Shown here piece after piece: positions 1-55,890 of a stretch of DNA of 64,000 nt. Numbering within the stretch: position 1 is the stretch's first letter; each line of letters opens with the position of its first letter. The DNA is taken from positions 3,226,501 to 3,290,500 of the forward strand of contig NC_089447.1 in NCBI RefSeq assembly GCF_026210795.1, read 5' to 3'. The DNA comes from Rhizophagus irregularis. Taxonomy: Eukaryota > Glomeromycota > Glomeromycetes > Glomerales > Glomeraceae. A model generated the notes under the pieces. It searched no databases, was not told the DNA's origin, and worked only from the letters and a program-made list of their open reading frames with translations. The translations under genes were made by a program, and so were the position numbers.

Positions 1-1290
1 TTTGTATTATTATCCAAGAATCCATGTCCCTAATAAAAATGATAAAAAAAAGAAAGGGAACATTATTAACGTCCTTACATGAAGAAATATAAAAAAATAA
101 CTTCCTCTTTTAGAAATACTCACCGGTCTCCATTTCCAAGTTCTGGGCTAAAATCTACAAAAAAAAAGAAGTAAAGGAACGTTAATAAACGTTCTTACAC
201 AAAGAAAAATTAAAAAAATCTGCTTCCTCCCTTTAAAAATACTCACCACTGGTCACCATTTCCGAGTCCTGGGCTAAAATCTACAAAAAAAAGGTAGTAA
301 AAGAACGTTAATAAACGTTCTTACATGAATAAATATAAAAAAACATTTAGAAATACTCACCGGTCTCCATTTTCAAGTTCCGGGCTAAAATCTACAATAA
401 AAGAAGTAAAGGAACGTTAATAAACGTTCTTGCATAAAGAAAACAAAAAAAACCCCTACTTTTCCAAATACTCACCGGTCTCCATTTCTGAGTTCTGGGC
501 CGAAATCTACAAAAAAATAGAAATAAAAGAACGTTAATAAACGTTCTTACATAAATAAAATAAAAAACCCCCCCACTTCCCTTTTTAAAAATACTCACCG
601 GTCTCCATTTCTGAGTTCCAGGCCGAAATCTACAAAAAAAATAGAAATAAAAGAACGTTAATAAACGTTCTTACATAAATAAAATAAAAAACCCCCACTT
701 CCCTTTTTAAAAATACTCACCGGTCTCCATTTCTGAGTTCCGGGCCGAAATCTACAAAAAAAATAAAAATAAAAGAACGTTAATATACGTTCTTACATAA
801 AGAAAAATTTAAAAATCCGCTTCCTCCCTTTAAAAATACTCACCACCGGTCTCTATTTCTGAGTTCCAGGCCGAAATCTACAAAAAAAAAATAAAAGAAC
901 GTTAATAAACGTTCTTACATAAAAAAAAAACCTCCTCCTTCTCAAATACCCACCGGTCCCCATATCCGAATTGCAGGCTAAAATCTACAAAAAAAGAAGT
1001 AAAGAACGTTAATAAACGTTCTTACATAAAAAAATCTCCTGCTTTCCCCTCTTACTGATCCTAATTTCAAGTTCACAGGCCGAAATCTACAAAAAGGAAA
1101 AAGTAAAAGAACGTTAATAAACGTTCTTACATATGAAAAACCAAAAAAAAAACTCGCTTCCTCCTTTTAAAAATACTCACCGGTCTCCATTTCCAAGTTC
1201 CGGCCGAAATCTACAAAAAAAAAGCAGTAAAAGAACGTTAATGAACGTTCTTACATAAAAAACAAAATTTTTCGAGACACTTACCCGGAA
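1..1290 (-). repeat. Tandem array A of intron/micro-exon-like units
   Basis: About eleven units of 110-125 bp. Read on the minus strand, each unit has GTGAGTATT, an A/T stretch, the palindrome GAACGTTTATTAACGTTC (a few variants), a T-rich tract ending in TTTTTGTAG, then a 31-base segment that begins ATTT and ends GGAGACCG directly against the next GTGAGT. The GT...TAG limits and T-tract have the look of a short fungal intron, and the 31-base segment that of a micro-exon. The exon-like segment has at least one open frame per unit, but 31 is not a multiple of three, so consecutive inclusion would change frame. The array starts outside the window, so its host element is unknown. Splicing is inference; the repeated anatomy is seen directly. 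Confidence 0.8.
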
Positions 1291-4700: not shown

Positions 4701-5330
4701 AATCTCTCCAAACGAATCATTAGAAAATTCTCTATCAAAAATGTCCTAAGCGATCCCCTTAATTAAAAAATACAAAAAATAATTTTCCTAAACGAACTCC
4801 TAGAAATTTCTCTATCAAATGATACCTTCAGTTAAAAAATTCTCAAAAAATAATTTTTCCAAACAAACTCTTAGAAAATTCTCTATCAAAAAAATTCTCT
4901 ATCAAAAAATGTTCCAACGGTCCCTTTGGTTAAAAAATTCTCAAAAATAATCTCTCTAAACGAACTCTTAGAAAATTCTCAATCAAAAAATGCCCTAAAC
5001 GATCCCCTTAATTAAAAAATTCAAAAAATAATTTCCCTAAACGAACTCTTAGAAAATTCTCAATCAAAAAATGCCCAAATGATCCTTTTAGTTAAAAAAT
5101 TCTCAAAAAACCATTTCCCAAACGAATTCTTAGAAAATTCTCTATCAAAAAATGTTCCAAACGGTCCCTTTAGTTAAAAAATTCTCAAAAATAATCTCTC
5201 CAAACAAATCTTTAGAAAATTCTCTATCAAAAATGCTCTAAATGATCCTCTTAGTTAAAAAAATAATTTTTCCAAACGGACTCTTAAAAAATTTCTCAAA
5301 AAAATCTATCTAAAAGTTTCTTAAATAAAA
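1740..5330. repeat. Long satellite, ~80 bp unit with 242 bp higher-order period
   Basis: Tandem copies of a unit with core TTAGAAAATTCTCTATCAAA, then AATGCCCTAAA or AATGTTCCAAA, a GATCC(C/T)TT or GTTCCCTT stretch and TTAAAAAATTC. From about 2.7 to 4.2 kb three unit types alternate, so the variant ATGTTCCAAACGTTCCC recurs near 2720, 2962, 3204, 3447, 3689, 3931 and 4173, a spacing of 242-243 bp. This indicates recent amplification of a trimer. The flanks from 1740 and after about 4.3 kb are more irregular and use dimers or monomers. No open frame of note and no splice-like anatomy. Confidence 0.9.
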
Positions 5331-6256: not shown

Positions 6257-6444
6257 CTTGTTCTCAAATTGCTCCTTAAATGGCAAAAGGTTATTTTAAA
6301 GGATGTGGGTATTTTTAAAAATAGAAAATATTAGAATAAAAAATATTTTATATAATATTTTTTTTTTATCAATAGAATAAATAGAATAAAATATTTTGAA
6401 TAAAACATTTTTATATAACGCAATTCATTATTATAAAATGAAAT

Positions 6445-8286
6445 CTATTTATTTGTATTTTTGAACAGCTTTTCGATATTTCTAACCAAGGTTGCTTGCT
6501 GAAACTTAGGGGTTTAGGCAAGATGGCGTTTCGCCAAAAAGCAAAATTCTGCCAAAATTATATTAAAGTTATATTAAAAAACTGGCGAAACTTTGGAGAA
6601 AGGTGAAACTGCCAAAACTTATTATAAATGCCAAAACTGCCAAAACTCTGCCAAAATTATAATAAATCTATAGTAAAATTTTGACAAAACTAATCGTAGG
6701 ATTTTGAAGAGGTTTAGACAAGCAACTTTATCTCCAACTGCTATTACTCCGCAAATTTCAAATTGTGTATCATTCAATTTACTCAAATGTTTTACTCTAA
6801 TTCTTTGTTTTTCAAATCCTTCCAAAAAATTAAAATAATAATCCTCTGTTTTCTCTGGTTCATCTATTTGTCACAAGAATTCAGCCATTGAAGGTATTGA
6901 TTGTGATGATTGAGATACTATAGAATTATTAGCTATTAAAGAAGATGAAGGTTGTTGAAGAAAATGTGGAGTAACTAATGCTTGTAGAAGGGTAGAAAAA
7001 ATAGGATTAATCAAATTATTTGAAAATTGAGGTAAATTTGATTGAGATCTATTTTTTGATGAATATGTATACCTAAATAAAGGATGTGTTGGTGATTCTT
7101 TAACTGTAGCAAGACCATTAAGCTAAATATAAAAAATTAATAAAATTAATCAATTATAAATATAATAAATAGTTCACCATTTCTGTAGCTCAAGTCAAAA
7201 ACATCATGTTGCTTATTTCAGCATGGAGTTCACAATCCTTTAAGCAATACCTATTATGAATAGAATACCAAGTTTCCTTTCGTAATTCTATAACATTTTT
7301 GGCAATTCTTTGATCAATTATAGAAATATCTGAAACTTTTGGAATTTTATTACTATTGCCACCCTTTGGAATTGATTCATCACAAATTATTTCTTCATCA
7401 TCTGAATTAGATTCCTAATCAAAAAAATATGTAATTTTAATAATTTTTCAAAGATACAGTGTAATAAAAAAGCATAAAATAAACTTAACCTTTTTCTTTC
7501 ATTTCACTAGCTTTTCCTTTTTTTCATAGTAACAAGAATAAGCAATAGTTCTTTTTGCTACAGCAAGTTTAACGTATTCTAATCAAAAATTTTAAAATTA
7601 CATACATCTACTAATAAAGTACCAGCCTCTTGAGTCTTTTCTGATTTGAAAGAAATGTTATAATTATTAGCATTGATTTTATCATCTTTAAGAAGAACTG
7701 TAATATTATTTTGAATTGCAAGTAAAAATTCGTCTAATTCAGAAATTATTACTAAATAATTTTTAGCCAGAAGAGCAGAACCATCAGCTTGTTTGATAAC
7801 AAGTTTATAATTAATTTCCATTTATTGTTTATCATCATCATCATTTTCTGAATCATTGTGTTTAGATTCACTTTGAGTTACTGTAGAGACTTCAGAAAAG
7901 CCAGTTTCAAGATCAATAACTTCTGTAGTTTCTGTTCTTTTTGTTCTTCCTGTTTTTTTGTATCAAATTTAAACTATTGGACAATCATTGATAAGAACTA
8001 TTACATTTTGTACAAAGTGAAAATTAAATATTTTTTGTTAAATCATATTCATATTGGAAATGTTCATTTTTATTTTTAACAAAATCAAATTGTTTAGAAT
8101 TAAAAGTAGTAGGATCAAATGCTCTTGAAAATGCATTTTTGACAAGAACAGTCCCATTTTTTCTAGTTGGTTTAACTGTTTTTTTGCATTTACATTATTA
8201 CATATATCTTTTTCTAAATTGATATCACAATATAAACATTTTTGACATCCAAAGCATGTTTTAATTTTGTACTTTTTTTTTACCAT
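6445..8286 (-). pseudogene. Degenerate SAM-type gene of a Glomeromycotina family, split by a MITE
   Basis: Reading right to left, ATG at 8286 starts MVKKKYKIKTCFGCQKCLYC, a CxxC/CxxC zinc-ribbon-like head. After a frameshift come NAFSRAFDPTTF, a stop, FSLCTKCNSSYQ, and an acidic stretch ending DSENDDDDKQ. The next segment (7821 to about 7600) begins MEINYKLVIKQADGSALLAK and is open for about 70 codons. Two intron-like gaps follow (one at 7123-7177, GT..AG, 55 bp), then a Ser/Gln-rich region and a SAM-like C-terminus containing IPSMAEFL, HLSKLNDTQFEICGV and AVGD. There are at least four stops or frameshifts. A hAT MITE (6487-6730) interrupts the SAM-like region; joining its two flanks restores a frame that ends at TAG, 6445-6447. 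I recall similar multicopy proteins of unknown function in arbuscular mycorrhizal fungi. The gene is not functional as it stands. Confidence 0.7.
6487..6730 (-). mobile_element. Nonautonomous hAT MITE, family TAAGGTTGCTTG
   Basis: The termini read CAAGGTTGCTTGCTGAAAC on the left and GACAAGCAACTTTA on the right, degenerate forms of the family ends TAAGGTTGCTTG / CAAGCAACCTTA. Flanking octamers TTTCTAAC and TCTCCAAC match at 6 of 8 positions, as expected for an old hAT 8 bp duplication. Related copies lie at 52745-52960 and 63741-63962 with perfect 8 bp duplications. The interior is rich in GCCAAAACTGCC-type repeats. It sits inside the SAM-type pseudogene. Confidence 0.8.
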
Positions 8287-30644: not shown

Positions 30645-31687
30645 ATATATATAATATTATATAATTTATATTTATATTTTTTTCTTTCTTTTTTCATTTT
30701 AAAGAAATAAACAATAAAAAATAGACTTACTCTTTTGGTTTCTATAATAGTTTTTAATATAATATAAGAGTTTTAGTTATGGTTACTTAGAACAAACTAA
30801 AAAATTGGCAACTTTTTGAAAAATTGGCAGTTTTCTTAAACTTCATATGAACGTTAAAGTATAAATAAACTTTAATTTTTATACAACATATATTATTGGT
30901 TTCAAAAAGCTTACACAAAAAGTACGAAAAGGGTTTGGCACATGTTGCCTATTTTTTATTAGACCGATCTTCTCTTGTATTACTTTAAAATTGATATGCC
31001 ATCATATAATTATTAAAATCAATTATAGTGTGTACTCTATCCTTAAAGATTTTAGATTTTTTATTAAAAAAATATTAAACATTAACAGTTAGCAGAAATG
31101 TCATTTCATATGCCAATCATTGATTAAAAAATGATTGGCAAAAATATTACCAAAACTTTGTGTTTAATACAACGTAATTTTTTTTTCAAACAACATATCC
31201 AAAATTTAATAAACTTTTATTTTTTATATTCTTACCTATACTTTACAGAAACTTCAAGATCATAACGATGGCTTAATGCGCAGTAACTGTGTTATAAATA
31301 TATAGTGACCACATTATGTAATCGTAAAGAAATTACATATATGCAGTTACTACGCATTAAACCATCGCTACGATCTTGAAGTTTCTGTAAAGTATGTTCC
31401 AATATTTTTTTTATAATACAACACTTTTACAAAAAAGTTTACTATACTGACTTTTTACTATTTTTTTGACTATAATCACAAAATGCAACCCTTTAATAAA
31501 AACTAAACGTGATTTTAAATTATTAATTATATGTAGTTTTTTATGTACAATTGAGTTACTTAAGCACAAAAAGGTGATTAGGATAGTAAATTTTATAATA
31601 CATATAAAATTCTTATTTTATTATAATGATATTGGTATAAATTAAGTGTATAACTGACATATAAATATATTTTTTATTACAGAAAGT
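30645..31687. other. A/T-rich interval with scattered repeats
   Basis: 30780-31140 holds short ATTGGCA-type words without clear element ends. A small inverted-repeat element at 31241-31392 is listed separately. No gene seen. Confidence 0.4.
31241..31392. mobile_element. 152 bp MITE with ~50 bp arms and TA flanks
   Basis: The left arm CTTTACAGAAACTTCAAGAT and the inverted right arm match over about 50 bp with few changes, and TA lies on both sides. The arms read into GATGGCTTAATGCGCAGTAA. The CTTTAC start and TA target are shared with the 363 bp family (57656, 58135, 61313), so both may use a Tc1/mariner-type transposase. Confidence 0.7.
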
Positions 31688-32379
31688 ATCATCGGGAAAT
31701 TTTTTAAGATGCAGAACTGTGGAGATCTGTAAAATTAGCAGATCTCCGCATTTTTTTTGTGAATTTATGTGGAAGTCTGCGATTTTGCAGATTTGTGCTT
31801 TTTATTTTTTACAAAGTTATGCAATAATCTGCAATTTTGCAAGTTTCCAATTTTTTATGTATGAATTTTTGCGGTAATCTGCGATTTTGCAGATTTCTGC
31901 TTTTTTTTATGTGAAATTTATGCGAAAGTCTGCAATTTTGCAGATTTTTGCTTTTTTTTCATTAAAATATCAGTTCGATCTGCAATTTCATCATTGATTT
32001 AATATTTAAACTTTGATTAACTCTAACTTGATTTAATACTTAAATGATTTTTTCGACAATATTCTTTAAAATAAAAAACTTTACAAGACTTTAAAAAAAA
32101 TAATTTTTTCTACAACACTTATTACTAAGGAAAAAAACTTTGTGAAATAATTTTTTCTACAACACCTTTTAGGAAATAATCTGTTAAAGATTCCAAAGAA
32201 AAAATATTTCTATTATTTTTTAAGCTTCGAAGCTTATCAGAGAAATTTTTTGCAAGGTTCAGAATCTTTAAGGCAAATTCGTCTAACATTCGGCACGTAA
32301 TCTGCAACATGCAGGAAAATCAGAACTAAAAAGGAGTCGTATTCCTTTTTTTTTTTGAAAAAAAAAAATTTTTTTTAAT

Positions 32380-33230
32380 GAACGTCAGTTAAAGTTCAGT
32401 TTGTAAGTCAAGAAAAGTTCCTATTATCACTTTTAATTTGGAGGTATATCACCTCTGAAACTTAATTTTTTTTAGAGAAAAAAAATTTTTTTATATATTA
32501 TAGGTTCTGAATGGAACCTTTTGATGATTTTGGAGGTATGCTTACCTCCAAAACTTAATTTATTTTTTTAAAAAAAAAATTTTTAATATTATATAGGTTC
32601 CAGATGGAACCCATCGATAATTTTGGAATTCGGAAGTATGCTTAACTCTGAATCTTAGTAATTAATTTTTTTTAAAAAAAATAAATTTTTTTATATTATA
32701 TAGGTACCTATCAAAGATATTGAAATTCGGAGGTATGCTTACCTCCGAATCTTAGTAATTAATTTTTTTTTAAAAAAAATATATTTTTTTATATTATATA
32801 GGTTCCGGATAGAACCTATCAAAGATATTGGAATTTGGAGGTATGTTTACCTCTGAATCTTAATTAATTTTTTTAAAAAAAAAATATATTTTTTTATATT
32901 ATATAGGTTCCGGATAGAACCTATCAAAGATATTGGAATTCAGAGGTATGCTTACCTCCGAATCTTAATTAATTTTTTTAAAAAAAAAAATATTTTTTTT
33001 TATTATATAGGTTCCAGATAGAACCTATCAAAGATATTGGAATTCGGGGGTATGCTTACCTCCGAATCTTAATTAATTTTTTAAAAAAAATATATATTTT
33101 TTTATATTATATAGGTTCCGGATAGAACCTATCAAAGATTTTGGAATTCGGAGGTATATTAACTTCCGAATCTTTAATTTATTTTAAAAAAAAAATAATT
33201 TTTTATTTAACGAACATCACTAATGTTCGT
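32380..33230 (+). repeat. Array B1, ~105 bp intron/micro-exon-like units
   Basis: Seven to eight units. Each has an A/T tract ending TATTATATAG, a 39-base segment starting GTTCCGGATAGAACC and ending AATTCGGAG, and then GTATGCTTACC. The bases around the last junction form a near-perfect hairpin (ATTCGGAGGTA-TGC-TTACCTCCGAAT) with the GTATGC motif in and beside its loop. Unit boundaries are regular, so the array is recent. Confidence 0.75.
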
Positions 33231-33479
33231 TTTTCATATTTTTAGGTCCTGAACGCTGAAGTGCGGCTCCGGACTTTATTTTTGAAGGTAAAAACCTTCA
33301 AATTTATTTTTTTATTTATATTTTTTTTTAATGAACGTCACTAACGTTCATTTTTTATTTTTTTTAAGTTCTGATAGTCGTTCATTTTCAATCCGTATCT
33401 ATGGTCAGATATCTGCCGTTTACGGATGAAAAGATATCGGTTATGCCGTAACGGACCATCCAGATTATTATCTGTGTTA

Positions 33480-33900
33480 CTAATGGATTATGAGATTATC
33501 CAGATCATCTGAGCTTTTAATTCAGTTCCGGACTTTGGAGATAACTGGTAGGGGACTTTTTTTAATTATATTTCTTTTTGTTTTATTATTGTTTTATTCT
33601 TATTTCTTTTCGCTAATTTCATTTTTCTTCTTCTTTAGATTCTTCTGTTTTGGACTTTGGAGACGAAGGGTGAGTTTTTTTTTATTTTATTTCTCTTTTT
33701 CGTTTATTATCTTGTTTCCTTCTGCTAATTTCGTTCTTTTCTTTAGTTTTTTCAGTTCCTGGAATTTGGAGACAACGGGTGGAGTTTTTTTAATTTTATT
33801 CTTTCTTTTTTGGTTTGTCTTGTTTTATTCTTCTAATTTCGTTCATATTCTTTAGGTTCTTCGGTTACTGGACTTTGAAGACGACGGGTATCGGCGCCCT
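33480..33900 (+). repeat. Array B2, longer intron-like units
   Basis: Three or four units of about 110-120 bp, each with a T/C-rich tract ending TTCTTTAG and an exon-like segment such as TCCTGGAATTTGGAGACAAC followed by GGGTG(A/G)GTTTT. The exon-like part resembles that of array A (GAACTTGGAAATGGAGACCG then GTGAGT), which suggests common descent. The 121-codon frame at 33490-33855 is a by-product of the T-rich tracts. Confidence 0.6.
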
Positions 33901-35520
33901 TTACTTTGGATTGGTAAGTTTCGAAAGTTTTATTCTTCAAACTTTCGAAACTTTTATTTTTTAAAAAAAAATTATTTTTTTTTTGTTTCTTTTTTTTAGG
34001 TATCGGTGAAACCCTTGCTTTCACGTAAGTTTCGAAAGTTTCATTTTTTTGAAACTTCATTTTTTTTAAAAAAAAATTTTTTTAATATTTTTTTTTATTT
34101 ATTTTTTTTAAATCGGTGAGACCCTTCACTTTGGATCGGTAAGTTTCAAAAGTTTCATTCTTTAGAAACTTTTAAAACTTTGTTTTTTTCAAAAAATTAA
34201 TACTTTTTTTTTATTTTTTAGGTTTCAGTAAGATCCTTCACTTTGGATCCGGTAAGTTTTAAGAGTTTCATTCTTTTGAAACTTTAATTTTTTTTACTTC
34301 TTTTTTTTTAATTTTCTTTTCTTTATTTTGTAGGTATCGGTTGCGACCTTTGGATACTAGGTGAGTTTTGAAAAGTTTTGTTCCTTCTTTTCGAAACTTC
34401 AAGTATTTTTTTGTTAAATTTTTTTCTTTATATTTTGTAGGTATCGATTGGCATCGGTTGGGACCTTTGGATAGGTGAGTTTTGAAAGTTTTATTACAAA
34501 ACTTTTCAAAACTTTAATTTTTTTTTAATTTTCTTTTCTTTATTTTGTAGGTATCGGTTGCGACCTTTGGAAACCTGTGGTAAGTTTTGAAAAGTTAACA
34601 TTAACTTTTCGAAACTTCAATTTTTTTTTAATTTTCTTTTCTTTATTTTGTAGGTATCGATTAGCATCGGTTGGAAACTTTAGATAGGTGAGTTTCAAAA
34701 AGTTTCATTACTTTTCGAAACTTTAATTTTTTTTTAATTTTCTTTTCTTTATTTTGTAGGTATCGATTAGCATCGGTTGGAATCTTTAGATAGGTGAGTT
34801 TCAAAAAGTTTCATTACTTTTCGAAACTTTAATTTTTTTTTAATTTTCTTTTCTTTATTTTGTAGGTATCGATTAGCATCGGTTGGAATCTTTAGATAGG
34901 TGAGTTTCGAAAAGTTTCATTACTTTTCGAAACTTTAATTTTTTTAATTTTCTTTTCTTTATTTTGTAGGTATCAAGTTGGGACCTTTGGAAACGAAACC
35001 TGTGGTAAGTTTTGAAAAGTTACATTAACTTTTCAAAACTTCAGGTATCGGTTGCGGTCTTTGAATAGGTGAGTTTTGAAAAGAATCATATTCTTTTCGA
35101 AACTTCAGTAATTTTTTTGTTTTTTAATGAACTTTACTAACGTATTCTCTTTTTGTAGGTCTATGGCTTCCTGGTGCTTTCTGAATTGAATTTCAAAGGT
35201 ATCCTTCGAAGTTCTTTAATTTCTTTTGTTTTCTTTAATGAAATATCAACTAATATCTCGTTTCTTTTTTTATACTGTAAGTCAGCAACTTTTTGGATGA
35301 CATCTGGATGGAACTTTGAAAAAAAAATAAAGATTTTCAAAGAAATGAAATTTGTAGGTCCGCGACTTCTTGGATTGCACCTGGATGGAACTTCGAAGGT
35401 ATTCTTCGAAGTTTAAATGTTATTTTTTTTAATGAAACATTACTAATTAACTGAATGTTTTTACTTTTCTACTTTTGGTAGGTCTACAAGTTCCTGGACG
35501 CTTCCTAAACGTAAATTTAA
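33900..35520 (+). repeat. Array B3, ~107 bp intron/micro-exon-like units
   Basis: About fourteen units. Typical anatomy: GTGAGTTTCGAAAAGTTTC, a partner ACTTTTCGAAAC that closes a hairpin directly after the GTGAGT, a T-rich tract TTTCTTTATTTTGTAG, then a 25-35 base segment such as GTATCGGTTGCGACCTTTGG ending at the next GTGAGT or GTAAGT. TTTTGTAG junctions recur at about 107 bp from 34330 to 34975. The last units (35155-35500) are less regular, with longer exon-like parts. Confidence 0.75.
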
Positions 35521-36032
35521 ATAGTTGTTTGTTGGAATCGAACTAACTGGAATAATATCCAAACCATTAACAACATGTAAATTACAGTAGAACTTTAGCT
35601 ATTAGTACATTAATAAAATAGTATAGTAAAGTGATAAATTTGTAGTGCGTTTAATTAATAAATTGATGTTAGATAATGCTAAAATAACAATCAAAATTTG
35701 TATAATTTATTATTATTTGATGAATTTTGCAGATTTTTATTTTGTAAAATATGTGCAGAATTTAATAACAAAAATCTGCGCAGAACTTTGTTATTTATAA
35801 AATCTGCGCAGTTTTTTATTGTATTTTTCCTCTGATGTTTTGCGCCAGGGTATAAGATCTGCGCAGATATAATTTCTGAAAATCTGCGCAGATCTGCTCC
35901 CCAAAAAATTTCCCGATGATGTCTTATTTATCTTTATGGTAATTCCACCATTCTCACACTTTTTTTTTAGTCCAGATCTTTGTTAAATGTTTACAAATAG
36001 AAGCAATAGCATCGTCTGGCAATTTTTCTTTA

Positions 36033-37137
36033 CAGTCAGCTCCCTCTATAGTCACTCCCGTTATAGTCACATTCTACTATATAGTCACACCAGTTGAATG
36101 TTCAAAACACTTTATTATTAAAATCTATCCTATATAGTCACAATCTATCTATAGTCACTATCACACCTATCCTCAAAAATCTTATATTAAAAAGAACCGT
36201 TTATAATCACAGTTATATAAAGAATATATTAAATAACTTGGCATCTAATAATCGTACAAAGATGTATCATAGCTTGTTAGAATTGTCTCACTGAGATGAA
36301 TCGAATGGTGGTAGTTTTATCCTTTTGCGATCACTGGCTGATGAGTTATTCAACAAAATGTTAAGCATCGGCATTATATTTCTTGATTTACGTTTACTGC
36401 GCCATTTAACATTTTGCTAAATTTCTCGGTACCTAGTGATTGTAAAAAGACGATTAATAGCTCGTTGGAATCGCCTCATCAAGACGAATCGAATGGTGGT
36501 AAGCTCATCTCTCTGTGATCAATATTAACGGAGTTACTACTTAAAAACCATTTAATATTTTTTAATTTCAGAAATTGATCTAGTGATTGGATTTTAATGT
36601 ATTTTATACCATTAGATTTGTCGCATTAAGACGAATCGAATGGTAGTAAGATTGTCTCTCTAGGATCAATATTGGCAGAGTTATTACACAAAAACCATTA
36701 ATATTTTTTTAATTTTAGAAATTAATCTAGTGATTGGATTTCGATGTGTTTTATACCATTAGAACCGTCTCATCAAGACGAATCGAATGGCGGTAAGAAC
36801 GTCTCTCTAGGATCAATATTGGCGGCGTTATTACACAAAAACCATTAATATTTTTTTAATTTCGGAAATTAATCTAGTGATTGGATTTCGATGTATTTTA
36901 TACCATTAGAACCGTCTCATCAAGACGAATCGAATGGCAGTAAGATCATCTCTCTATGATTAATATTGGCGGAGTTACGATACAATAAAGTTTTGAGTAT
37001 AATTTTGGCTAAAATTATGTTAATTTTTAGCCGGAATTATGATATACTAATATAAGAAATTTTTTATATAGTCACATCTCTTTATAATCACCAAATATGA
37101 ACTGTCCCAAATGTGTGACTATAAAGAGAGTTGACTG
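36033..37137. mobile_element. Pogo-like nonautonomous element, copy 2
   Basis: It begins CAGTCAGCTCCCTCTATAGT and ends ATAAAGAGAGTTGACTG with TA on both sides. At 1105 bp it is the longest copy and holds three successive ~180 bp units ending in TCATCAAGACGAATCGAATGG (36480-36960). It interrupts the pseudogene 35924-42960 between ILSVLK and KEKLPDD, with the TA duplication as the only disturbance to the frame. Confidence 0.85.
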
Positions 37138-37782
37138 TATATACTTTCAATACAGAAAGTATTTTCGTCTCCTTTTCAGTAATTTGATGCTTTTTTTGTG
37201 GCTTAGTTGTATTAGATGTGGGTTGATCCAAATTTTCATCTGTATTTTTTTATGATAATTGTAAAGATCCAGTAGTAGATTGTTTTTTATTACTATTGTA
37301 ATCTTTAACTTTCATCATAACTACTCCTACCATTCTCCTACCTTTAGTATTTCTGCTTTCTATTTTTAAAACTTCCTATCAATATATCTCTTTGATTTTT
37401 TCTAATCCATTTGGATAACATGCTATAAAACGATTAAGCCCCTCTTGGTTCATTTCTGTAGGTGGATATTTCTGAAATAATTGGTGGGATAATAGATCAT
37501 CCATTTCAAATATTACTACTACCAGGTCATTAACAAGTTTCCATAAAGATTCTTAACGTGATTTTATTGTTTTTTCACTATGTGAAATTGAATTATCATT
37601 GAAATACTCACTTATTAAAAGATCTATTCTTTTTCTTTCATTTTGAGACGCTTTTATTTGATTTTTAAGATTTTTTTTATTAATAACATTTCCACTTATA
37701 TTTTCTTTAATAAATCTTACTCCAAATGTTTCCAGAGTCTTATCAAATCCAAAACAAACATGATGCAAATCACTATCAATAT

Positions 37783-39649
37783 TAGTGCTCCGAAAAAAAT
37801 CTGATCTGATCTGGGATCCACAGATTTGATCCGAGCCAGATCGGTACGGTTTTCAAAATTTTGATCTGTAGATCAGATCGGATTTAAAAAAAATCTGATC
37901 CGATCTGAACAGATTTTGGATCAGATTTTTTTTTTAAAAACCCTTTCCTGGACGAACGGACGCCGGACGACCAAGATTTAAAAGAACGAACTAGGTAAGT
38001 TCGTTTCTTTTTTTTTGTTATTTTTACTTGAGGGAACTTAATTAACGGTTCCCTTCTTTTTTATTAGGAAGCTGGACGAACGAAGCCTAACGATCAGGAT
38101 TTAAAAAAAAAGAACGAACCTATAGTGAGTTCGTTCTTTTTAAGTTTTTTTTTATTTTTACTTAAGGGAACGTAATTAACGTTCCCTTTCTTTTTTTTAG
38201 AAAACCTGGACGTGGACGAAGCCATTAACGACCAGGATTTAAAAAAAGAACGAACTATGATAAGTTCGTTTCTTTTTTTAAGTTTTTTTTTATTTTTACT
38301 TAAGGGAACGTAATTAACGTTCTCTTTCTTTTTTTTAGGAAATCTGGACGTGGACGAAGCCATTAACAACCAGGATTTAAAAAAAGAACGAACTATGGTA
38401 AGTTTGTTTCTTTTTTTAAGTTTTTTTTTTTATTTTTACTTAAGGGAACGTAATTAACGTTCCCTTTCTTTTTTTTTAGGAAACCTGGACGTGGACGAAG
38501 TCGTTAACGACCAGGATTTAAAAAAGAACGAACTATGGTAAGTTCATTTCTTTTTTAAGAAGTTTTTTTTTTAATTTACTTAAGGGAACGTAATTAACGT
38601 TTCCTTTCTTTTTTTTAGGAAACCTGGACGTGGACGAAGCCATTAACGACCAGGATTTAAAAAAAGAATGAACTATAGTAAGTTCATTTCATTTTTTAAG
38701 TTTTTTTTTTTAATTTACTTAAGGGAACGTAATTAATGTTCCCTTTCTTTTTTTTTAGGAAACCTGGACGTGGACGAAGCCATTAATGACCAGGATTTAA
38801 AAAAAGAACGAACTATGGTAAGTTCGTTTCTTTTTTAAGTTTTTTTTTATTTTTACTTAAGGGAACGTAATTAACGTTCCCTTTCTTTTTTTAGGAAACC
38901 TGGACGAACAAAGTCGTTAAGACGTTAACGACCAGGATTTAAAAAAAAAGAACGAACTATGGTAAGTTCATTTCTTTTTTTTAGGTTTTTTTTTATTTTT
39001 ACTTAAGGGAACGTAATTAACGTTCCCTTTCTTTTATTTTTAGGAAACCTGGACGTGGACGAAGCCATTAACGACCAGGATTTAAAAAAAGAACGAACTA
39101 TGGTAAGTTCGTTTCTTTTTTTAAGTTTTTTTTTATTTTTACTTAAGGGAACGTAATTAACGTTCCCTTTCTTTTTTTAGGAAATCTGGACGAACGAAGT
39201 CGTTAAGACGTTAACGACCAGGATTTAAAAAAAAGAATGAACTATGGTAAGTTCGTTTCTTTTTTTAGGTTTTTTTTTTATTTTTACTTAAGGGAACGTA
39301 ATTAACGTTCCCTTTCTTTATTTTTAGGAAACCTGGACGCGAGACGAAGCTGAACGACCAGGGATTTAAAAAGAACGAACTATGGTAAGTTCGTTTTTTT
39401 TATTTTTATTTTTATTTTTTTTACTTTAAGGAACGTAATTAACGTTCCCTTTCCTTTTTTAGTACAAGGACCAGATCCGAACCAGATTCGGATCAGATTC
39501 AAATCGGATTCAAATGGATCCGAACCAGATTCGGATCAAATTGAACCAGATCTAATCAGATTCGGATCAGATCAGATCTATTAAAATAAAAATCAGATCG
39601 GATCAGATTTAAGCTAAATCCGGTCTGAACCGATCTGTTAGGAGCACTA
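37783..39649 (+). mobile_element. hAT-type element carrying an intron/micro-exon-like array
   Basis: The termini TAGTGCTCC and GGAGCACTA are inverted repeats that fit the hAT YARNG start, and the 8 bp ATCAATAT is duplicated exactly (37775-37782 and 39650-39657). Subterminal regions on both sides are dense in GATC words (AGATCGGATC, CCGAACCAGATTCGGATC; 37800-37940 and 39465-39640). The rest is the tandem array 37950-39460. No transposase is encoded. The element splits the pseudogene 35924-42960 between HNI and DSDLHH of the flanking frame. Confidence 0.85.
37950..39460 (+). repeat. Array C, ~140 bp intron/micro-exon-like units
   Basis: Eleven units. Each has GTAAGTTCGTTTC, a T-rich stretch, ACTTAAGGGAACGTAATTAA with its palindrome GGGAACGTAATTAACGTTCCC just upstream of a tract ending TTTCTTTTTTTTAG, then an exon-like segment of about 57-60 bases (GAAACCTGGACGTGGACGAA ... 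GAACGAACTATG). The end of the exon-like segment and the start of the next GTAAGT pair as GAACGAACT/AGTTCGTTC with ATGGTA in the loop, so the 5' splice-site-like motif lies in a hairpin. One frame of the exon is open (NLDVDEAINDQDLKKERTM), but the commonest length, 59, is not a multiple of three. Confidence 0.82.
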
Positions 39650-40514
39650 ATCAATATTATGTGAAATTTTGAAAGTACTACAATAATTTAATTTTCTTCT
39701 AATTGGAAATAAACTGCTATAGTGGCAAAAAAATGTGCTATTGCCGTTGTATAGTTTAATTTTACAGTATTTGTATAAAGAGATCCAGCTGCAGATAATA
39801 AATTTCATTGTAATCTAAAATTTTCAACGCGTATTCCTATCTGATGAGCTTTTCAGATTCCAGCTCATTTATAATACAAATATCAAATCTAAATATAGGC
39901 ATTATTAGTAAATAAAATTAAAGCTATTTAATATTAATTTTGTTTAAAAAGTAAGTTATTTTTGTAATTAATTTTTAATATATGATTACTTTAAAACAAT
40001 ATGATTATTTTCTTCATCATTCATTATTTTAGAGAATAATATTTTTTTTTTAGTAATATATATATTTATTGCTACTTCTACTGCTACCCATATAAAATCT
40101 AATACCCATGCTATTGAGCGATAATCTATTGCAGATTTAAACTCATCCAAGAAATAAACATCTAAGCGGGATGCTAGACTTAATAATTCATAACTAAAGA
40201 ATAAAATTAATAATACTAAACAAAAGTCTTTTGACATATACCATTGACCTAAAAAAGACCTTATATATATATAGCCATTTTTCTTGACATTTAATTAACT
40301 GGCGAAATATTGCTTCATCTGCAACAATATTTAGAAAAGAATGATCTTCTATTGTAAAATCCTTCTTGTACATTTTAGCAACATGCAATATTTTATTATC
40401 CAAATTTGGATTTGATTCTGGTTCTAGAATTACAATATTGGGAGATTTATCAGGACTATAGAAAATTGGCCCTTTACTAATAGTTTTTACCTTACTTTTT
40501 TCTTAAATTCTATT

Positions 40515-43168: not shown

Positions 43169-45482
43169 TAAAGCTCTAAATGGTCTGGATTGGTCCAGGT
43201 TGAAGAGTAACTCAGGACCGAACCGAAAAATTAGTTCATTTCGGTCTGGTCCAGTTTATATTAAAAGGTGAATCCAGGATCAGACCAGACTGGACCAGTT
43301 ATTTTAGTTCGGTCCGGTCCAGTCCTATAATAAAAAAATATTACGAAAACGTTTTTTAGTTATAATTATTTAGAAAAAACGTTTTGCAACGTTTTTTCGT
43401 TAAATTAATTAGAAAAACGTTGCGAAAACATTTTTTCTAATTAAATATACTTAGAAAAAACGTTGTGAAACGTTTTTTCGCTAAATTAATTAGAAAAACG
43501 TTGTGCAAATGTTTTTTCTAATTAAATATACTTAGAAAAAACATTTCATAACGTTTTTTCATTAAATTAATTAGAAAAACGTTGCGCAAACATTTTTTCT
43601 AATTAAATATGATAAGAAAAAACGTTTTGCAACGTTTTTTCTTTAAACTAATTAAAAAAATGTTGCGCAAACATTTTTTCTAATTAAATATAATAAGAAA
43701 AAACGTTTCGCAACATTTTTTCTTTAAACTAATTAGAAAAACGTTGCGCAAACATTTTTTCTAATTAAATATAATAAGAAAAAATGTTTCGCAACGTTTT
43801 TTCTTTAAGATTCGATCCGCCTATGATCGACAGAAAATTACTATATAAATTCGGGGGAAATTTTATTGCAAAAAATAAACTAAATAGGCAAAATTTTGCC
43901 AATCAAAATCATCACAAATCATGTTGTGGCATTCAAGTCATGTGATGAAACTTAAAAATGCCAAGAAAAATATCGAGAAAAATATTTTCACATAGAAACT
44001 CACAATAAACGCTAAAATCTGACACCTACCGTGTCTTAAATATTCATTATTCAGTAAAAATTGCTTCACGCATGAAAATTACTCAAATATTATTGTCAAA
44101 GTGATGGTTTTTTGGCTAAAAACAAGCGTAACTAACGTACAAATAGAAAAGATCTAAAAATGAAAAATTCAACCTAAAATAACCTATCTGCTATATAAAT
44201 CCTTCTAAAAAGCCATTATTACCTATTGTTCCGGTAATTATATGTTATTTTTTTTATATTATTCTTACAACACTTTCAAAAAGCTAATAATACTTTGCAA
44301 ACTAACGCTAAGAGTTTGTGTGATGCACTCAAATTGAAAAACTAGATAAGAATACATATACCAAAACTTCCACCATTTGAAATTAATTTACGGGTTACTC
44401 CTCATGAAAATAGAAAGAGATCATAGTAACATGTGAACTAAAAGCAAGAGAAAATATTAGAATTATAAACAAGTAGTTTTAAACATATAAAATACATGAG
44501 AACATAATTTTAAGTGTTCATATATGTTAAAATAACGTAATATACGACTTGAAATTCTTGCATATATATATATACATACCTGTCAAATCTGACGCTGCCT
44601 CAAAGTAAAGTTTCGAACAAATAAATAAATTTCTCAATTTTTTTTTATTTTTTTCATCTTTGACATTTAAGGAATCATCATGTGAATTTTGGTGCCACAG
44701 CATGATGATCTGCGGTTTTTATAGCCCATAAAATTTAGCCAATTTTGGCATTTTTATAATAACCTCGCCCCGAATTTATATAGTAATTTTCTGTCGTTCG
44801 TAGGCGGATCGGCTCTTAAACTAATTAGAAAAACGTTGCGCAAACGTTTTTTCTAATTAAATATAATAAGAAAAAATGTTTTGCAACGTTTTTTCTTTAA
44901 ACTAATTAGAAAAACGTTGCGCAAACGTTTTTTCTAATTAAATATGATAAGAAAAAATGTTTTGCAACATTTTTTCTTTAAACTAATTAGAAAAATGTTG
45001 CGCAAACATTTTTTCTAATTAAATATGATAAGAAAAACGTTTTGCAACGTTTTTTCTTTAAACTAATTAGAAAACCATTGCGCAAACATTTTTTTTAATA
45101 AATATACTTAGAAAAAATGTTGCGCAACATTTTTTCTTTAAATTAATTAAAAAAATGTTGCGCAACATTTTTTCTTTAAATTAATTAAAAAAACGTTGCG
45201 CAAACGTTTTTTTTATAATAATATGTTAAAAAAAATGTTATGCAACGTTTTTTTATTTAATAATTAAATAATCGCAACAGTTTTAATATAAACCATTGCG
45301 AAAATATTTATCAGTCCGGTCTGGTTCCAACCCGTTTTTTCAGTTCAGGCTAGATTTATAATCCGAAACTGGACCGGACCAGACCAAATATTTTGGTCCG
45401 GGTTGAAGCATCAACCCAGACTAGACCAATCTGAATTTTTGGTCCAGGTTGTCGGATTAGGACCGACCCGATTAGAGCTTTA
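43169..45482. mobile_element. hAT-type element carrying an AACGTT palindrome array
   Basis: The ends TAAAGCTCTAA and TTAGAGCTTTA are inverted repeats with a YARNG start, and the flanking ATAATATG is duplicated exactly (43161-43168 and 45483-45490). Subterminal regions are rich in GGTC/GACC words (GGACCGGACCAGACC; 43185-43325 and 45310-45470). The core is a tandem array, units of about 80 bp, of AAAAACGTTGCGCAAACGTT and AAAACGTTTTGCAACGTTTT palindromes separated by CTAATTAAATAT. A second transposon (43809-44815) sits in the array. No transposase. Confidence 0.85.
43809..44815. mobile_element. TTAA-target element (piggyBac- or Kolobok-like), noncoding
   Basis: The TTAA of the host array is duplicated (43805-43808 and 44816-44819). 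The ends are inverted repeats of about 48 bp sharing CGATCCGCCTA, CGACAGAAAATTACTATATA and AATTCGGGG. The 1007 bp interior has no open frame. The uninterrupted array unit elsewhere (CTTTAAACTAATTAG) gives the pre-insertion sequence, so the boundaries are firm. The TTAA target points to the piggyBac or Kolobok groups; the termini do not decide between them. Confidence 0.82.
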
Positions 45483-47938: not shown

Positions 47939-50415
47939 ATGGATACTCCAACTGAACAACAAAAGAAAAAAGATGGTCGTTCTCAAAGAAAAGTATGGAG
48001 ACATTATGAGAAGAAACCGCTCAAGTCTGATGGTCATTTTTTGGCTAAATGTAATTATTGTAGGACATATTGGCCTCATGGTCATTCAAATAAGCTAAAA
48101 GATCATTTAGCAAACAACTGTAAAGAAGTTTCAGAACTTGTTCATTCATTCTACTTAGATGTAGTTTCTGCGCAGAATTTTGGAAGGGAAGATACCTTTT
48201 CTTCGCCAGAAAATAGTAAAAAAAGAAAAACTCAGGTGGACCAGCGGGAGTTAACTGATTGGTTTAAGTCAACTCTCAAAAAAAAGCTTCTATTACTCGT
48301 GCTCTTGTATACGCATTTATATGTTGCAGTATTCTGTTCTCAATTATTGAGAATCCATTTTTTATTGAATTTCTCCACGAAATGAGACCAGGATATGAGC
48401 CTCCAACAAGCGAATTGCTGAGTAGTTGACTTTTAAATCAAAAAACAGCAAGAATTAATGACAAGATTAAGGAAATCATTAAAAATTCTGAGAATTTAAC
48501 ACTTGGTAAGTTTTATTATCAAATGAATTTTTAAAAATTTAAAAATTTTAAATTCTAATTGTTTAACTCTTTAAGCACTTGATGGCTGAACAAATCCGAA
48601 TGGTGTTTCTGTTTATAACTGTATAATCCTAACTCCTGATCGAGAACAATACCTTTATGCTCTTTATGACTATTTAGGTGATCATCATACAGGAGATTTT
48701 CTTGCAAGCCAAATTACGGATATTATCAAAAAAATTGGTCCTGAAAAAGTTTTTGCATTAGTTACTAATAATACCGTGAATTGCGTTAAAGCAAGGGAAA
48801 TTATTATGAATCAATTTCCAAACATTATTAATTTTTGTGCATTGTTCATTTCATCAATTTAGTAACCAAACAGATTATGGATATGTTTCAAATTCTATAA
48901 AATAATTATGAATTATTGTTAAAAATTCATTTTTTTAACCTTTTTTTTTTAATTTTAGAATATGATTTGGCTAAAATAACGATCAGTAGCTGTAATCAGA
49001 TTACATCATTCTTTAAACGTTCTTATATAGTAGGAAAATTGTTGACCAATGCTACTACTACATTACAAATCGTAGGAGGAGGGCTTAAAACATACTGTGA
49101 AACAAAATGGACTTCTATGTATGAAGTTGTAAGTTCCATGTCTTGTTTACGAATAGCACTAAAACATGTAAGTTTATTTCAATATCTATAAATTCTTATT
49201 TTGTTATTGTAATATTACTGATTATTAATAATATTTCGTAAAATATTTATAGGTTTTGAAGAATAATCCTAATGAAATCACAAATAAAAGTGTTAGACGA
49301 AATATTCGAAGCTCAAAAATTTTCTCAAATGTTGATAAATTAACTAAAGTTCTAAAGCTGATTAAAACTGCAATTACCTTACTTAAAACTTAAAAGTGCC
49401 AATGCAAACCTTACTGATTGCTTTCTTCAATTGATTTTAATAGCAAATACTATTAAAAAATTACCATCTCGAGAAATGGTAGAATTTCATCAACATTGTA
49501 TCAAATCATTTAACAAATATTGGGACAAGTTTGATTTAAAAATCTATATTTTGGCATATTTTTTACATCCTGCCTATCGCAGTTAGTAAAATCCTAATTT
49601 TTTAATGAAATTATTCATTAAAAAAAATAAATTGATTTTTTTATAAATATTTAATAGCATGTAGATTAAAAGCAGTATATTAGAAAACTATCACTACTAC
49701 CGCGGCTCAGATTTGGCAAAATAATGGTGGTGACAAGAAGTCATGTAATCGTCTTTTAGCACAAATACGTAATTATGAATTGCAAAAGAGTCCATATAAT
49801 CAAGAGATTGATAGCCATTTTAAAACACCAATAAGTTGGTGGCTTAAAATCAAAGACAAGTATGATTATCTTCCTGCATTGGCTATAATAGTGTTTTCTA
49901 TCACTTCACATAGTACAGGATGCGAAAGAATTTTTTCTACTCTTGGCTGGTTATATGGTACATGACAGCAATGATTAAGACTTTTAAAGATTGAGGCTAT
50001 GGCAAAAATTTGGTTGTTTTATGTATCTAATATTAAAAATGAGCTTACTTATGTTGGTCAACAATATACAGTGGACAAAGTGCATGAAATGATTAATGAT
50101 TCAACATTTTTACAATTTAAAGAGGAGGAAGATGAAATTGATAATAGAAGAAATATTCCTATTTCAGAAATTCCTAATCATGAAGTATGGGTTTTGATTA
50201 TTGAAGAAATGTTTAATTTAAAAAATGCAGTAAAATGTTTGAATAATAATGGTGAAAATTCAGATAATAGTGATATTAATGATGATGTTAATAAAACTGA
50301 TGGTGAAAATGAACTAGACGATAGTAAAAATGTAGAAATGGAAAGTAATTATGATGTTAAAGAATTAATTCAACAATATTCACTTGATAATGAATTAGAA
50401 GGAGACACTTTATAA
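47939..50415 (+). pseudogene. hAT transposase, copy 1 (inactive)
   Basis: Remnant of a BED-zinc-finger hAT transposase, the enzyme that cuts and reinserts this element. ATG at 47939 begins MDTPTEQQKKK; the BED finger (CNYCRTYW ... HLANNC) lies in the first 65 codons. A frameshift follows near codon 116. Later segments in order: LDG-stop-TNPNGVSVY; YLYALYDYLGDHHTGDFLAS; KVFALVTNNTVNCVKA, where copy 2 has TDNAAN, so the conserved Asp is lost; CETKWTSMYEVVSSM; WWLKIKDKYDYLPALAI; and the C-terminal dimerisation motif SHSTGCERIFSTLGWLYGT, followed by a stop. The acidic tail ends at 50415. Short intron-like gaps remain (e.g. GTAAGTTTTATTATC...TTTAAG). More decayed than copy 2. Confidence 0.85.
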
Positions 50416-53409: not shown

Positions 53410-55890
53410 ATGGACACTCCAACTGAACAACAAAAGAAGAAAGGTGGTCGTCCTCAAAGTGAAGTATGGAGACATTATGAGAAGAAACCGCTCAAGTCTG
53501 CTGGTCATTTTTCGGCCAAATGTAATTATTGTAGGACATATTGGCCTCGTGATCATCCAAATGAGCTAGAAGATCACTTAGCAAACAACTGTAGAAAAGT
53601 TCCAGAACTTGTTCATTCGTTCTACTTAGGTGTAGTTTCTGCGCAGAATTTTGGAAGGGAAGATACCTTTTCTTCGCCAGAAAATAGTAAAAAAAGAAAA
53701 ACTCAGGTGGACCAGCGGGAGTTAACTCATTGGTTTAAGTCAACTAACATAAATTCTCAAAAAAAGGCTTCTATTACTCGTGCTCTTGTGCACACATTTA
53801 TATGTTGCGGTATTCTGTTCTCAATTATTGAGAATCCATTTTTTATTGAATTTCTCCACGAAATGAGACCAGGATATGAGCCTCCAACAAGCGAATTGCT
53901 GAGTAGTTGACTTTTAAATCAAAAAACAGCAAGAATTAATGACAAGATTAAGGAAATCATTAAAAATTCTGAGAATTTAACACTTGGTAAGTTTTGTTAT
54001 CAAATGAATTTTTAAAAATTTAAAAATTTTAAATTCTAATTGTTTAACTCTTTAAGCACTTGATGGCTGAACAAATCCGAATGGTGTTTCTGTTTATAAC
54101 TATATAATCCTAACTCCTGATCGAGAACAATACCTTTATGCTCTTTATGACTATTTAGGTGATCATCATACAGGAGATTTTCTTGCAAGCCAAATTACGG
54201 ATATTATCAAAAAAATTGGCCCTGAAAAAGTTTTTGCATTAGTTACTGATAATGCTGCGAATTGCGTTAAAGCAAGGGAAATTGTTACGAACCAATTTCC
54301 AAACATTATTAATTTTTGGTGCATTGTTCATTTCATCAATTTAGTAACCAAACAGATTATGGATATGTTTCAAATTCTATAAAATAATTATGAATTATTG
54401 TTAAAAATTCATTTTTTTAACCTTTTTTTTTTAATTTTAGAATATGATTTGGCTAAAATAACGATCAGTAGCTGTAATCAGATTACATCATTCTTTAAAC
54501 GTTCTCATATAGTAGGAAAATTATTGTCTGATGCTACTACTACATTACAAATCGTAGGAGAAGGGCTTAAAACATACTGTGAAACAAAATGGACTTCTAT
54601 GTATGAAGTTATAAGTTCCATGTCTCGTTTACGAATAGCACTAGAACATGTGAGTTTATTTCAATATCTATAAATTCTTATTTTGTTATTGTAATATTAC
54701 TGATTATTAATAATATTTCGTAAAATATTTATAGGTTTTGAAGAATAATCCTAATGAAATCACAAATAAAAGTGTTAGACGAAATATTCGAAGTTCAGAA
54801 TTTTTCTCAAACGTTGATAAATTAACCAAAGTTTTAAAGCCGATTAAAACTGCAATTATCTTACTTGAAAGTGCTAATGCAAACCTTGCTGATTGCTTTC
54901 TTCAATTGATTTTAATAGCAAATACTATTAAAAAATTACCATCTCGAGAAATGGTAGAATTTCATCAACATTGTATCGAATCATTTAACAAATATTGGGA
55001 CAAGTTTGATTTAAAAATCTATATTTTGGCTTATTTTTTACATCCTGCCTATCGCAGTTAGTAAAATCCTAATTTTTTAATGAAATTATTCATTAAAAAA
55101 AATAAATTGATTTTTTTATAAATATTTAATAGCACGTAGATTAAAAGCAGTATATTAGAAAACTATCACTACTATCGCAGCTAAGATTTGGCAAAATAAT
55201 GGTGGTGACAAGAGGTCATGTAATCGTCTTTTAGCACAAATACGTAATTATGAATTGCAAAAGAGTCTATATAATCAAGAGATTGATAGCCATCTTAAAA
55301 CACCAATAAGTTGGTGGCTTAAAATCAAAGACAAGTATGATTATCTTCCTGCATTGGCTATAATAGTGTTTTCTATCACTCCACATAGTGCAGAATGCGA
55401 AAGAATTTTTTCCACTCTTGGCTGGTTATATGGTACACGACGGCAACGATTAGGACTTTTAAAGGTTGAGGCTATGGCAAAAATTCGGTCATTTTATGTA
55501 TCTAATATTAAAAATGAGCTTGCTTATGTTGGTCAATAATATACAGAGGACGAAGTGCATGAAATGATTAATGATTCAACATTTTTACAATTTGAAGAGG
55601 AGGAAGATGAAATTGATAATAGAAGAAATATTCCTATTTCAGAAATTCCTAATCATGAAGTACGGGTTTTAATTATTGAAGAAATGTTTAATTTAAAAAA
55701 TGCAGTAAAATGTTTGAATAATGATGGTGAAAATTCGGATGATAGTGATATTAATGATGATGTTAATGAAACTGATGGTGAAGATGAACTAGATGATAGT
55801 GAAAATGTAGAAATGGAAAGTAATTATGATGTTAAAGAATTAATTCAACAATATTCACTTGATAATGAATTAGAAGGAGACACTTTATAA
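53410..55890 (+). pseudogene. hAT transposase, copy 2 (nearly intact, with stops)
   Basis: ATG at 53410 begins MDTPTEQQKKKGGRPQSEVW. The BED finger is CNYCRTYW ... HLANNC (codons 38-62). The first block runs to LLSS-stop at 53908; the frame continues LLNQKTARINDKIKEI, an intron-like gap (53987-54056, GTAAGT...TTTAAG) and ALDG-stop-TNPNGVSV, where TGA replaces the Trp expected in the D-G-W motif. Then come LVTDNAANCVKA with the conserved Asp, FINLVTKQIMDMFQIL-stop, CETKWTSMYEVISSM, LPSREMVEFHQHCIESF, a stop in AVY-stop-KTITT, SWWLKIKDKYDYLPALAIIV, and the C-terminal dimerisation region PHSAECERIFSTLGWLYGT with RRQRLGLLKVEAMAK. After a last stop at VGQ comes an acidic tail ending at 55890. Two stops (LLSS, DG) are shared with copy 1. 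Confidence 0.88.

Follow-up and report, generated by a model that had tools for sequence, protein, structure and literature searches.

A non-autonomous Plavaka transposon of Rhizophagus irregularis with a one-way chain of intron-like and micro-exon-like units

Introduction

The question here is whether a DNA transposon can carry a chain of spliced introns, or whether such a chain is a satellite in which splice signals persist as relics. It is raised by a transposon at positions 31690-35918 of a 64,000-nucleotide (nt) stretch of the genome of the arbuscular mycorrhizal fungus Rhizophagus irregularis (assembly GCF_026210795.1, contig NC_089447.1, positions 3,226,501 to 3,290,500). This whole stretch is called the window, and positions are those of the window. 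The transposon has 16-bp terminal inverted repeats and is flanked by AT/AT. It is a non-autonomous member of Plavaka (CMC/EnSpm). Its interior probably consists of about 25 U2-type introns, all in one direction, separated by noncoding exons of 22-68 nt, and its transcript would be spliced to a noncoding RNA. Judged from the sequence, splicing of the arrays into noncoding RNA most likely takes place now or did so until recently. Arrays of this class also occur at other places in the genome, and at least one further transposon superfamily carries them.

The window element is a non-autonomous Plavaka transposon

The element comprises the following features.

31688..31689, no strand: target site duplication, left copy, AT (identical 2-bp flanks across copies)
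31690..31705, + strand: left terminal inverted repeat, CATCGGGAAATTTTTT (end-sequence search and comparison of copies)
31706..31988, + strand: subterminal repeats of the TCTGC/GCAGAT type with a period of ~50 bp (tandem repeats at 31738-31988)
31989..32402, + strand: leader (comparison among copies)
32403..33746, + strand: chain of 12 parsed introns, array A then array B (chain parser)
33747..34138, + strand: more units outside the parser chains, for example an intron at 33914-33999 (by eye and a cruder first parse)
34139..35481, + strand: chain of 11 parsed introns, array C and then longer units to 35481 (chain parser)
35482..35769, + strand: tail (its stretch 35540-35590 is matched in many other copies)
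35770..35902, + strand: right subterminal repeats of the CTGCGCAGA type (within the ~150 bp common to transposase-type copies)
35903..35918, + strand: right terminal inverted repeat, AAAAAATTTCCCGATG, ending at 35918 (end comparison)
35919..35920, no strand: target site duplication, right copy, AT (comparison of copies)

Related copies were searched for in the genome (146.7 Mb, 32 contigs). A 73-base query from the left end gave at least 40 matches including the window element itself (the best 40 of 88 candidates), and a query from the right part gave at least 40 (the best 40 of 121 candidates). From the end and array searches, 26 stretches were taken. L025 and L026 were dropped as their left end was unrecognisable, and 24 complete elements were obtained, counting that of the window. 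These copies were selected by end matches and length, not at random. Identical 2-bp flanks, whose sequence varies by site, are present in 21 of the 24 (14/17 and 7/7); the flanks of L013, L016 and L017 mismatch. The inverted ends had been given as 18 bp long in a preliminary description. The ends are indeed inverted, but the true repeat is 16 bp. The AT added to it at either end (31688-31689 and 35919-35920) is the target duplication, because the flanks of other copies behave so.

Four of the 24 copies have a coding core in place of the arrays: L031, L032, L033 and the first of two elements in the C27 stretch. The central part of the L033 core matches the Pfam family PF18759 (Plavaka) with an E-value of 5.3e-24 and 85.5 bits against a cutoff of 26.3. 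L031, L032 and the first C27 element match L033 at 97-99% (DNA similarity). The terminal inverted repeat is common to the window element, L031-L033 and the first C27 element. Array-type and transposase-type copies share termini only; the window element has in common with L031-L033 the first ~215-270 bp on the left and ~150 bp on the right. The leader of the window element is matched from the end to ~32360 or further in 11 of the 16 copies L009-L024, but not in the transposase-type copies. It may contain the promoter and the first exon. Chains with a minimum of five introns and a score of 2 or more per intron are present in 20 of the 24 complete copies, one or more in each, and in none of the four transposase-type copies. 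The first C27 element has one weak chain at 0.93 per intron, which is within the range of background chains.

Target duplications of CMC transposons are short, 2-3 bp. The window element is assigned to Plavaka as a non-autonomous transposon because its termini are shared with transposase-type copies; the inverted repeats are shared, a Plavaka transposase match is found in one presumed autonomous copy (L033), and the target duplication is short. It is presumably mobilised in trans by the transposase-encoding copies with the same ends. Its ends are thus those of a Plavaka transposon, a fungal group of CMC/EnSpm. The difference is that it lacks a transposase and that its interior is a chain of introns and micro-exons. 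Plavaka elements are described as especially abundant in R. irregularis, in DAOM197198 as well as in other strains (PMC11075540).

Chains of introns and micro-exons

The chains were detected with a purpose-built parser with hand-set weights for the donor, the acceptor, an intron of 45-165 nt and an exon of 15-70 nt. In array A, exons are mostly 39 nt and introns are of the type GTATGC...TATATAG. In array B, introns are of the type GTGAGT...TTCTTTAG. In array C, introns are of the type GTGAGT/GTAAGT...TTTGTAG and exons are 27-35 nt. Units at the end (35159-35510) exceed the others in length and follow the plan less regularly. Together, the 23 parsed introns account for 1945 of the 3612 bases between the leader (near 31989) and the tail (near 35600), the unparsed units not being included. 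Units within the tandem arrays show high identity. Exon and intron are duplicated together in every array that was read; therefore, tandem duplication, not insertion, built the arrays.

The preliminary description counted about 25 units, all facing the same way. This agrees with the 12 and 11 parsed introns plus the units seen by eye at 33747-34138, and with the orientation of both chains on the + strand; the parser found no chain on the - strand of the element. The regular plan described there also holds, but not the segment length of 25-39 bases, as the inner exons of the two parsed chains are 22-68 nt.

The chains are far from random expectation. The element contains 17 donors of the form GT[AG][AT]G[TC] with a T-rich YAG 45-110 nt downstream, and none is on the opposite strand. 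In 200 dinucleotide shuffles of the element, the mean number of such paired donors was 0.34 and the maximum was 3. Two control stretches of the window have 0 and 0 on the + strand and 1 and 0 on the - strand. In the whole window, four chains score over 2.7 per intron. Two of these are the chains of the element, and the others lie at 37995-39462 (+) and 30-1284 (-). Every remaining chain with at least four introns scores below 1.5 per intron.

Constraint on the splice sites

Since the parser requires GT and AG, its counts cannot themselves test these dinucleotides. In a test on diverged units, relatives of six unit types were collected by BLAST without requiring GT or AG, and departures from the column majority were counted. 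The types contain 95, 62, 68, 17, 35 and 16 distinct units; loci L035 and L001-L008 were left out. Pooled over the six types, the donor GT is changed in 8/586 cases (1.4%) and the acceptor AG in 12/583 (2.1%). In control columns, the corresponding numbers are 926/14485 (6.4%) for other G and T and 825/9836 (8.4%) for other A and G. Taken singly, the control columns show 254/2217 for other G, 672/12268 for other T, 571/7619 for other A and 501/3139 for CpG. Acceptors are kept better than other A and G in all six unit types, and donors are clearly better kept in four. When longer flanks are used, the pooled changes are 3/376 for donors and 6/376 for acceptors. When control columns are taken from nearby, donors are changed in 8/586 or 6/488, acceptors in 12/583 or 13/484, and G in 13.3 or 13.6%. 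The pooled difference persists in both cases, and random draws of G/T or A/G columns reach rates as low as those of the splice sites in 0.6-3.6% of draws.

When recent copies are set against the consensus of their own group, donors of two subfamilies are changed in 2/108 against 19/260 of other G and T, and in 3/150 against 41/453. An earlier pairwise test, in which donors were kept at 94% against ~79-80% of other G and T (82-92% identity bin), was biased, the sites having been chosen in one partner, and was replaced by the consensus tests. CpG columns change fastest: in subfamilies A and B their rate is 0.11-0.15, against 0.01-0.09 for the remaining non-splice columns, and in a third set (the window element, L009 and L023) it is 0.19-0.24 against 0.08-0.17. 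Such fast change at CpG would fit methylated, silent copies. In our reading, constraint may have acted while the arrays were built and moved, and single inserted copies would decay.

Branch points and hairpins

The motif YTAAY, which the parser never used, is present 12-60 nt before AG in 458 of 494 introns (93%) from 36 sources, at a median distance of 28 nt. The expected number is 265 when the intron interior is shuffled and 270 when it is reversed. Although R. irregularis is reported to have many minor (U12) introns (PMC10639083), the array introns were rejected as such, since their donor composition and YTAAY look U2-like.

Inverted repeats with a score of at least 12 occur around the 5' splice site in 29% and in the 3' half in 21% of 447 introns, against 0% in shuffled introns. 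The arms of these hairpins covary: swapping them between introns worsens their fit, before and after thinning to 77 dissimilar introns, 57 of which have the branch-point motif in range. In the thinned set, arms at the branch point match their own partner at 5.75 of 8 positions (n = 57) against 4.95 (standard deviation 0.12) when swapped, and arms at the 5' splice site at 5.94 (n = 77) against 5.59 (standard deviation 0.07). Among exon/intron arms of the form TT[YR]AAG|...CTT[YR]AA in which both have changed from CG to TG or CA, 31 of 42 pairs are compensated (TG-CA 22, CA-TG 9) and the others are not (TG-TG 7, CA-CA 4). The folding z-scores are -4.7 and -3.1 for units of L017, -4.2 for a unit of the hAT-like element described below, and -2.1 and -1.9 for two units of the window element. 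As a small control, six introns of ordinary genes in the window were delimited by eye, some of them off by a base. The motif was present in three (best match 6/8) and absent from three, and none of the six has a strong branch-point hairpin. A function of the hairpins in RNA is plausible.

The same plan in other elements of the genome

Two further features of the window show the same plan.

37783..39649, + strand: second carrier, a hAT-like non-autonomous element with ends TAGTGCTCC/GGAGCACTA and the 8-bp duplication ATCAATAT
30..1284, - strand: third chain of the same plan, 11 parsed introns, exons of 30-34 nt (chain parser)

An 8-bp target duplication and TAGTG-type ends are features of hAT transposons. 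All three copies of the second carrier that were read have perfect 8-bp duplications (ATCAATAT, GTTGAAAG and GTAATAGG); therefore, the element at 37783-39649 is considered hAT-like. It contains 11 parsed introns at 37995-39462, one of which, near the left end, is visibly mis-joined over two units. Its exons are unlike those of the Plavaka element of the window. The number of paired donors is 10 in the stretch 37784-39653 against 0.04 in shuffles, and 7 in the left-hand array (30-1284) against 0.17. In L017 it is 1 against 0.20; its donors are mostly of the GTAAAG/GTAAAA type, outside the strict motif, although the chain parser recovers 22 introns from it. A region of ~3.7 kb around the left-hand array recurs at ~99% identity on three other contigs (L036, L037 and L038), suggesting recent spread. 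This array adjoins a satellite of 81/242 bp at 1872-5262.

Searches with array pieces gave at least 132 matches for the left-hand array, at least 172 for the hAT-like element and at least 260 for L017, counts in which neighbouring units of the same array are included. The pattern of the hairpin, GAACGTN{1,4}TAACGTTC, occurs 664 times forward and 616 times in reverse, symmetrical hits being counted on both strands, against 1 and 1 for the reversed pattern. Thirteen regions with the pattern, clustered and isolated, were chosen by hand from the listed places on contigs C1 and C2. Eight have parser chains (L043, L045, L046, L047, L048, L051, L053 and L054); by eye, L049 and L050 are also arrays, and L044 has one intron-like stretch. 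Dissimilar exon families share the array plan. In seven 9.9-kb pieces at preset places (69.3 kb), 10 introns were found in three chains (L055, L057 and L059), of which that of L059 is doubtful and that of L055 includes one unusually long intron; the other four pieces have no introns. Scaled from these few events, a rough guess is that array introns number on the order of ten thousand or more genome-wide.

Some array elements are apparently interrupted by other insertions (L026, the C8 stretch comprising L029 and L030, and L009). Long open frames are present in L026 and the C8 stretch, and L009 has a repeat with open frames at ~6300-7000. In the window, palindrome-rich satellites with ACGTT cores lie at 43372-43808 and 44816-45222, and no splice chains were seen in them. 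Two similar open frames (MDTPTEQQKKK...), zinc-finger-like by eye, are found at 47939-48385 and 53410-53910, ~5.5 kb apart.

In the tail of the window element, the segment 35522-35590 is matched in many copies. Its reverse strand resembles the T-arm of tRNA by eye, and in other copies it lies in a short antisense open frame (L010, 3974-4258, - strand). A tRNA-like tail was rejected, as the tail folds barely better than shuffles (z -0.7 and -1.2) and ARAGORN found no tRNA in the window. The search of 31600-39800 against Rfam gave only matches below the gathering scores.

Evaluation of alternative explanations

Several observations weigh against the splicing of the arrays. The donors of the winC type are changed in 1/34, in a sample of only 17 units, and those of the hAT-like type are kept no better than control columns (3/70 against 13/338 for G and 24/1549 for T). 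When compared with nearby columns, splice sites are ahead of T (4.2-6.2%) and A (3.9-4.4%) by a smaller margin. P values are overstated because the units are related by duplication. In recent copies of the two subfamilies, acceptors have no clear advantage over other A and G (7/107 against 13/337; 10/148 against 40/490), and the third set shows no advantage for donors (12/69 against 35/264) or acceptors (15/69 against 43/210). The hairpins do not prove a function in RNA, because palindromes exist without introns and template switching could match the arms without selection. Two of the 13 hairpin-pattern regions, L042 and L052, are palindrome satellites without splice sites; therefore, hairpins also occur outside introns. 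In a search with joined exons, which gave 301 matches, nearly all of the ~150 listed cover a single exon and a few extend over 2-3 exons at 72-80% identity. No spliced copy was found among the matches checked. The one multi-exon match examined as a candidate spliced retrocopy, at C1:4384612-4384724, was rejected, as it retains the acceptor end of the intron and so represents a deletion rather than a splice.

These points bear on the possibility that the arrays are a passive satellite, in which a once-real intron with its exon was amplified in transposons by unequal exchange or palindrome-driven slippage, and the splice signals are relics with no splicing now. The tandem arrays of units with high identity, the faster change of CpG columns expected of silenced, methylated copies, the palindrome satellites without splice sites in the same genome, the acceptors of recent copies and the donors of the hAT-like type all agree with it. 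Such a satellite would not, however, explain why GT and AG of the pooled diverged units vary less than matched columns, why a branch-point motif lies at the right distance in most introns, why dissimilar exon families have a common plan, or why both chains of the element face one way. We therefore regard it as a rather unlikely explanation, yet one to be taken seriously. An introner-like family, in which the introns themselves are mobile and the arrays are clustered insertions, is improbable. Introns with similarly laid-out hairpins do adjoin dissimilar exons, fungal introner-like elements are described with predicted stable structures or inverted repeats (PMC8469720), and many introner families are reported to have signatures of DNA transposition (PMC9860276). 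However, the joint duplication of exons and introns in each array read indicates tandem duplication. For the same reason, the suggestion in the preliminary description that the units are introner-like introns turned into a satellite gained no support: the repeated unit is an exon plus an intron in tandem, not an intron alone. Of the properties of introners, the splice signals of an intron are present, as signals in the sequence, and the intron as the mobile unit was not found.

It is very improbable that the chain is a protein-coding micro-exon gene, for a repeat protein that is possibly secreted, carried by the transposon. Secreted effectors made of repeat units are known in R. irregularis, and those of the SP7 type are described with a conserved intron before the first repeat (PMC11333574). 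The exons of array A (39 nt) and L017 (42 nt) are multiples of three, and stops are rarer in exons than in dinucleotide shuffles: of 361 unique exons, 93 are open in all three frames against 39.8 expected. However, their reverse strand is also fairly open (70/361 with three open frames), which points to composition; the G+C content is 43% in exons and 22% in introns. The reading was rejected because of the way the frame behaves. Lengths of unique inner exons fall into all three classes (155, 101 and 120 with remainder 0, 1 and 2), and array C exons such as GTATCGATTAGCATCGGTTGGAATCTTTAGATAG have stops in all three frames. In 36 spliced chains, no reading frame was kept across exons, and the longest open runs sum to 2829 codons against 2852 with the order of exons permuted. 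Dissimilar exons share the words TGGAC and CTGGA above expectation (TGGAC in 18 of 85 against 2.9). This could be a splicing-enhancer-like signal or a trace of remote common origin.

Splicing into micro-exons, which the preliminary description had proposed as one possibility, thus gains from the pooled constraint on GT and AG, the branch-point motif and the covarying hairpins, and loses from the donors of the hAT-like type and the acceptors of recent copies. Drift of unit borders away from GT/AG had been named there as evidence to the contrary. Pooled diverged units drift less at GT and AG than elsewhere, but in recent copies acceptors appear unconstrained, and donors appear constrained in only two of three sets.

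Comparison with known systems

Micro-exon genes of schistosomes encode secreted proteins and keep phase. They resemble the window element in having many tiny exons per transcript, and differ in that the exons of the window element keep no frame. Introners and introner-like elements are also spliceosomal-type introns multiplied by mobile DNA, and stable structures or inverted repeats are reported for the fungal ones (PMC8469720). Introners, however, are single introns inserted in genes, whereas the arrays consist of tandem blocks of exon and intron without a kept frame. Inverted repeats are likewise a feature of the symmetrical introns derived from stwintrons in Hypoxylaceae, in which the donor G, the branch A and the acceptor G are described as frequently unpaired in the predicted fold (PMC8469720). 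Those introns pair their two ends and sit in genes with exonic flanks, in contrast to the two separate local hairpins seen here. Non-autonomous elements with satellite-like arrays, such as the Helentrons of oysters (PMC7492417), also have internal tandem repeats spread by mobile ends. The difference is that the present arrays repeat a unit of one intron and one exon, whose splice sites are constrained, and that the ends are of the terminal inverted repeat type.

In the titles and abstract openings among the matches listed from the open-licence literature, no element of such composition is described. The same literature gave nothing joining Rhizophagus with micro-exons and introns, or arbuscular mycorrhizal fungi with introners. 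One paper was listed for R. irregularis together with introner, none of the papers listed for this fungus with tandem repeats and transposons mentions short exons, and the main text of the introner paper (PMC9860276) does not mention Rhizophagus. In our judgement, the carriers are known and the cargo is not.

Possible origin and significance

In the proposed history, Plavaka ends would have captured a noncoding transcription unit with several introns. Its chain would have been lengthened by tandem duplication of units of exon and intron, and a transposase made elsewhere would move the element, so that the chain is copied by transposition. Transcription from the left would be followed by removal of the introns by the spliceosome, and a noncoding RNA would remain. 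Many introns carry a hairpin that lies at the 5' splice site or spans it, and in many of them another hairpin surrounds the branch point. Splicing may help the element, as U1 sites could shield its T-rich transcript from early polyadenylation. Alternatively, an efficiently spliced RNA may escape silencing by small RNAs. Mobilisation in trans, transcription, splicing in vivo and a benefit of splicing to the element are inferences.

A broader and doubtful possibility is that the arrays represent an unnamed large class, in which transposons of unrelated superfamilies independently carry chains of hairpin-dressed introns because splicing helps them, perhaps through RNA export, stability or hiding from silencing. 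In that case, DNA transposons would rely on the spliceosome as one component of their survival strategy, and the arrays would be a part of the uncharacterised repeats of arbuscular mycorrhizal fungi.

Introns are usually seen as parts of genes or as single introner insertions. Here, blocks of exon and intron act like a satellite inside transposons, and their splice sites are still constrained. The arrays may account for part of the uncharacterised repeats of R. irregularis, which are reported to occupy 24% of the genome (PMC8647823), and they could distort gene prediction and the annotation of transposable elements. Nanopore RNA data exist for this fungus (PMC10234402). If the arrays are spliced, they would offer a natural system for studying exons of very small size, splice-site hairpins and the role of introns in selfish DNA.

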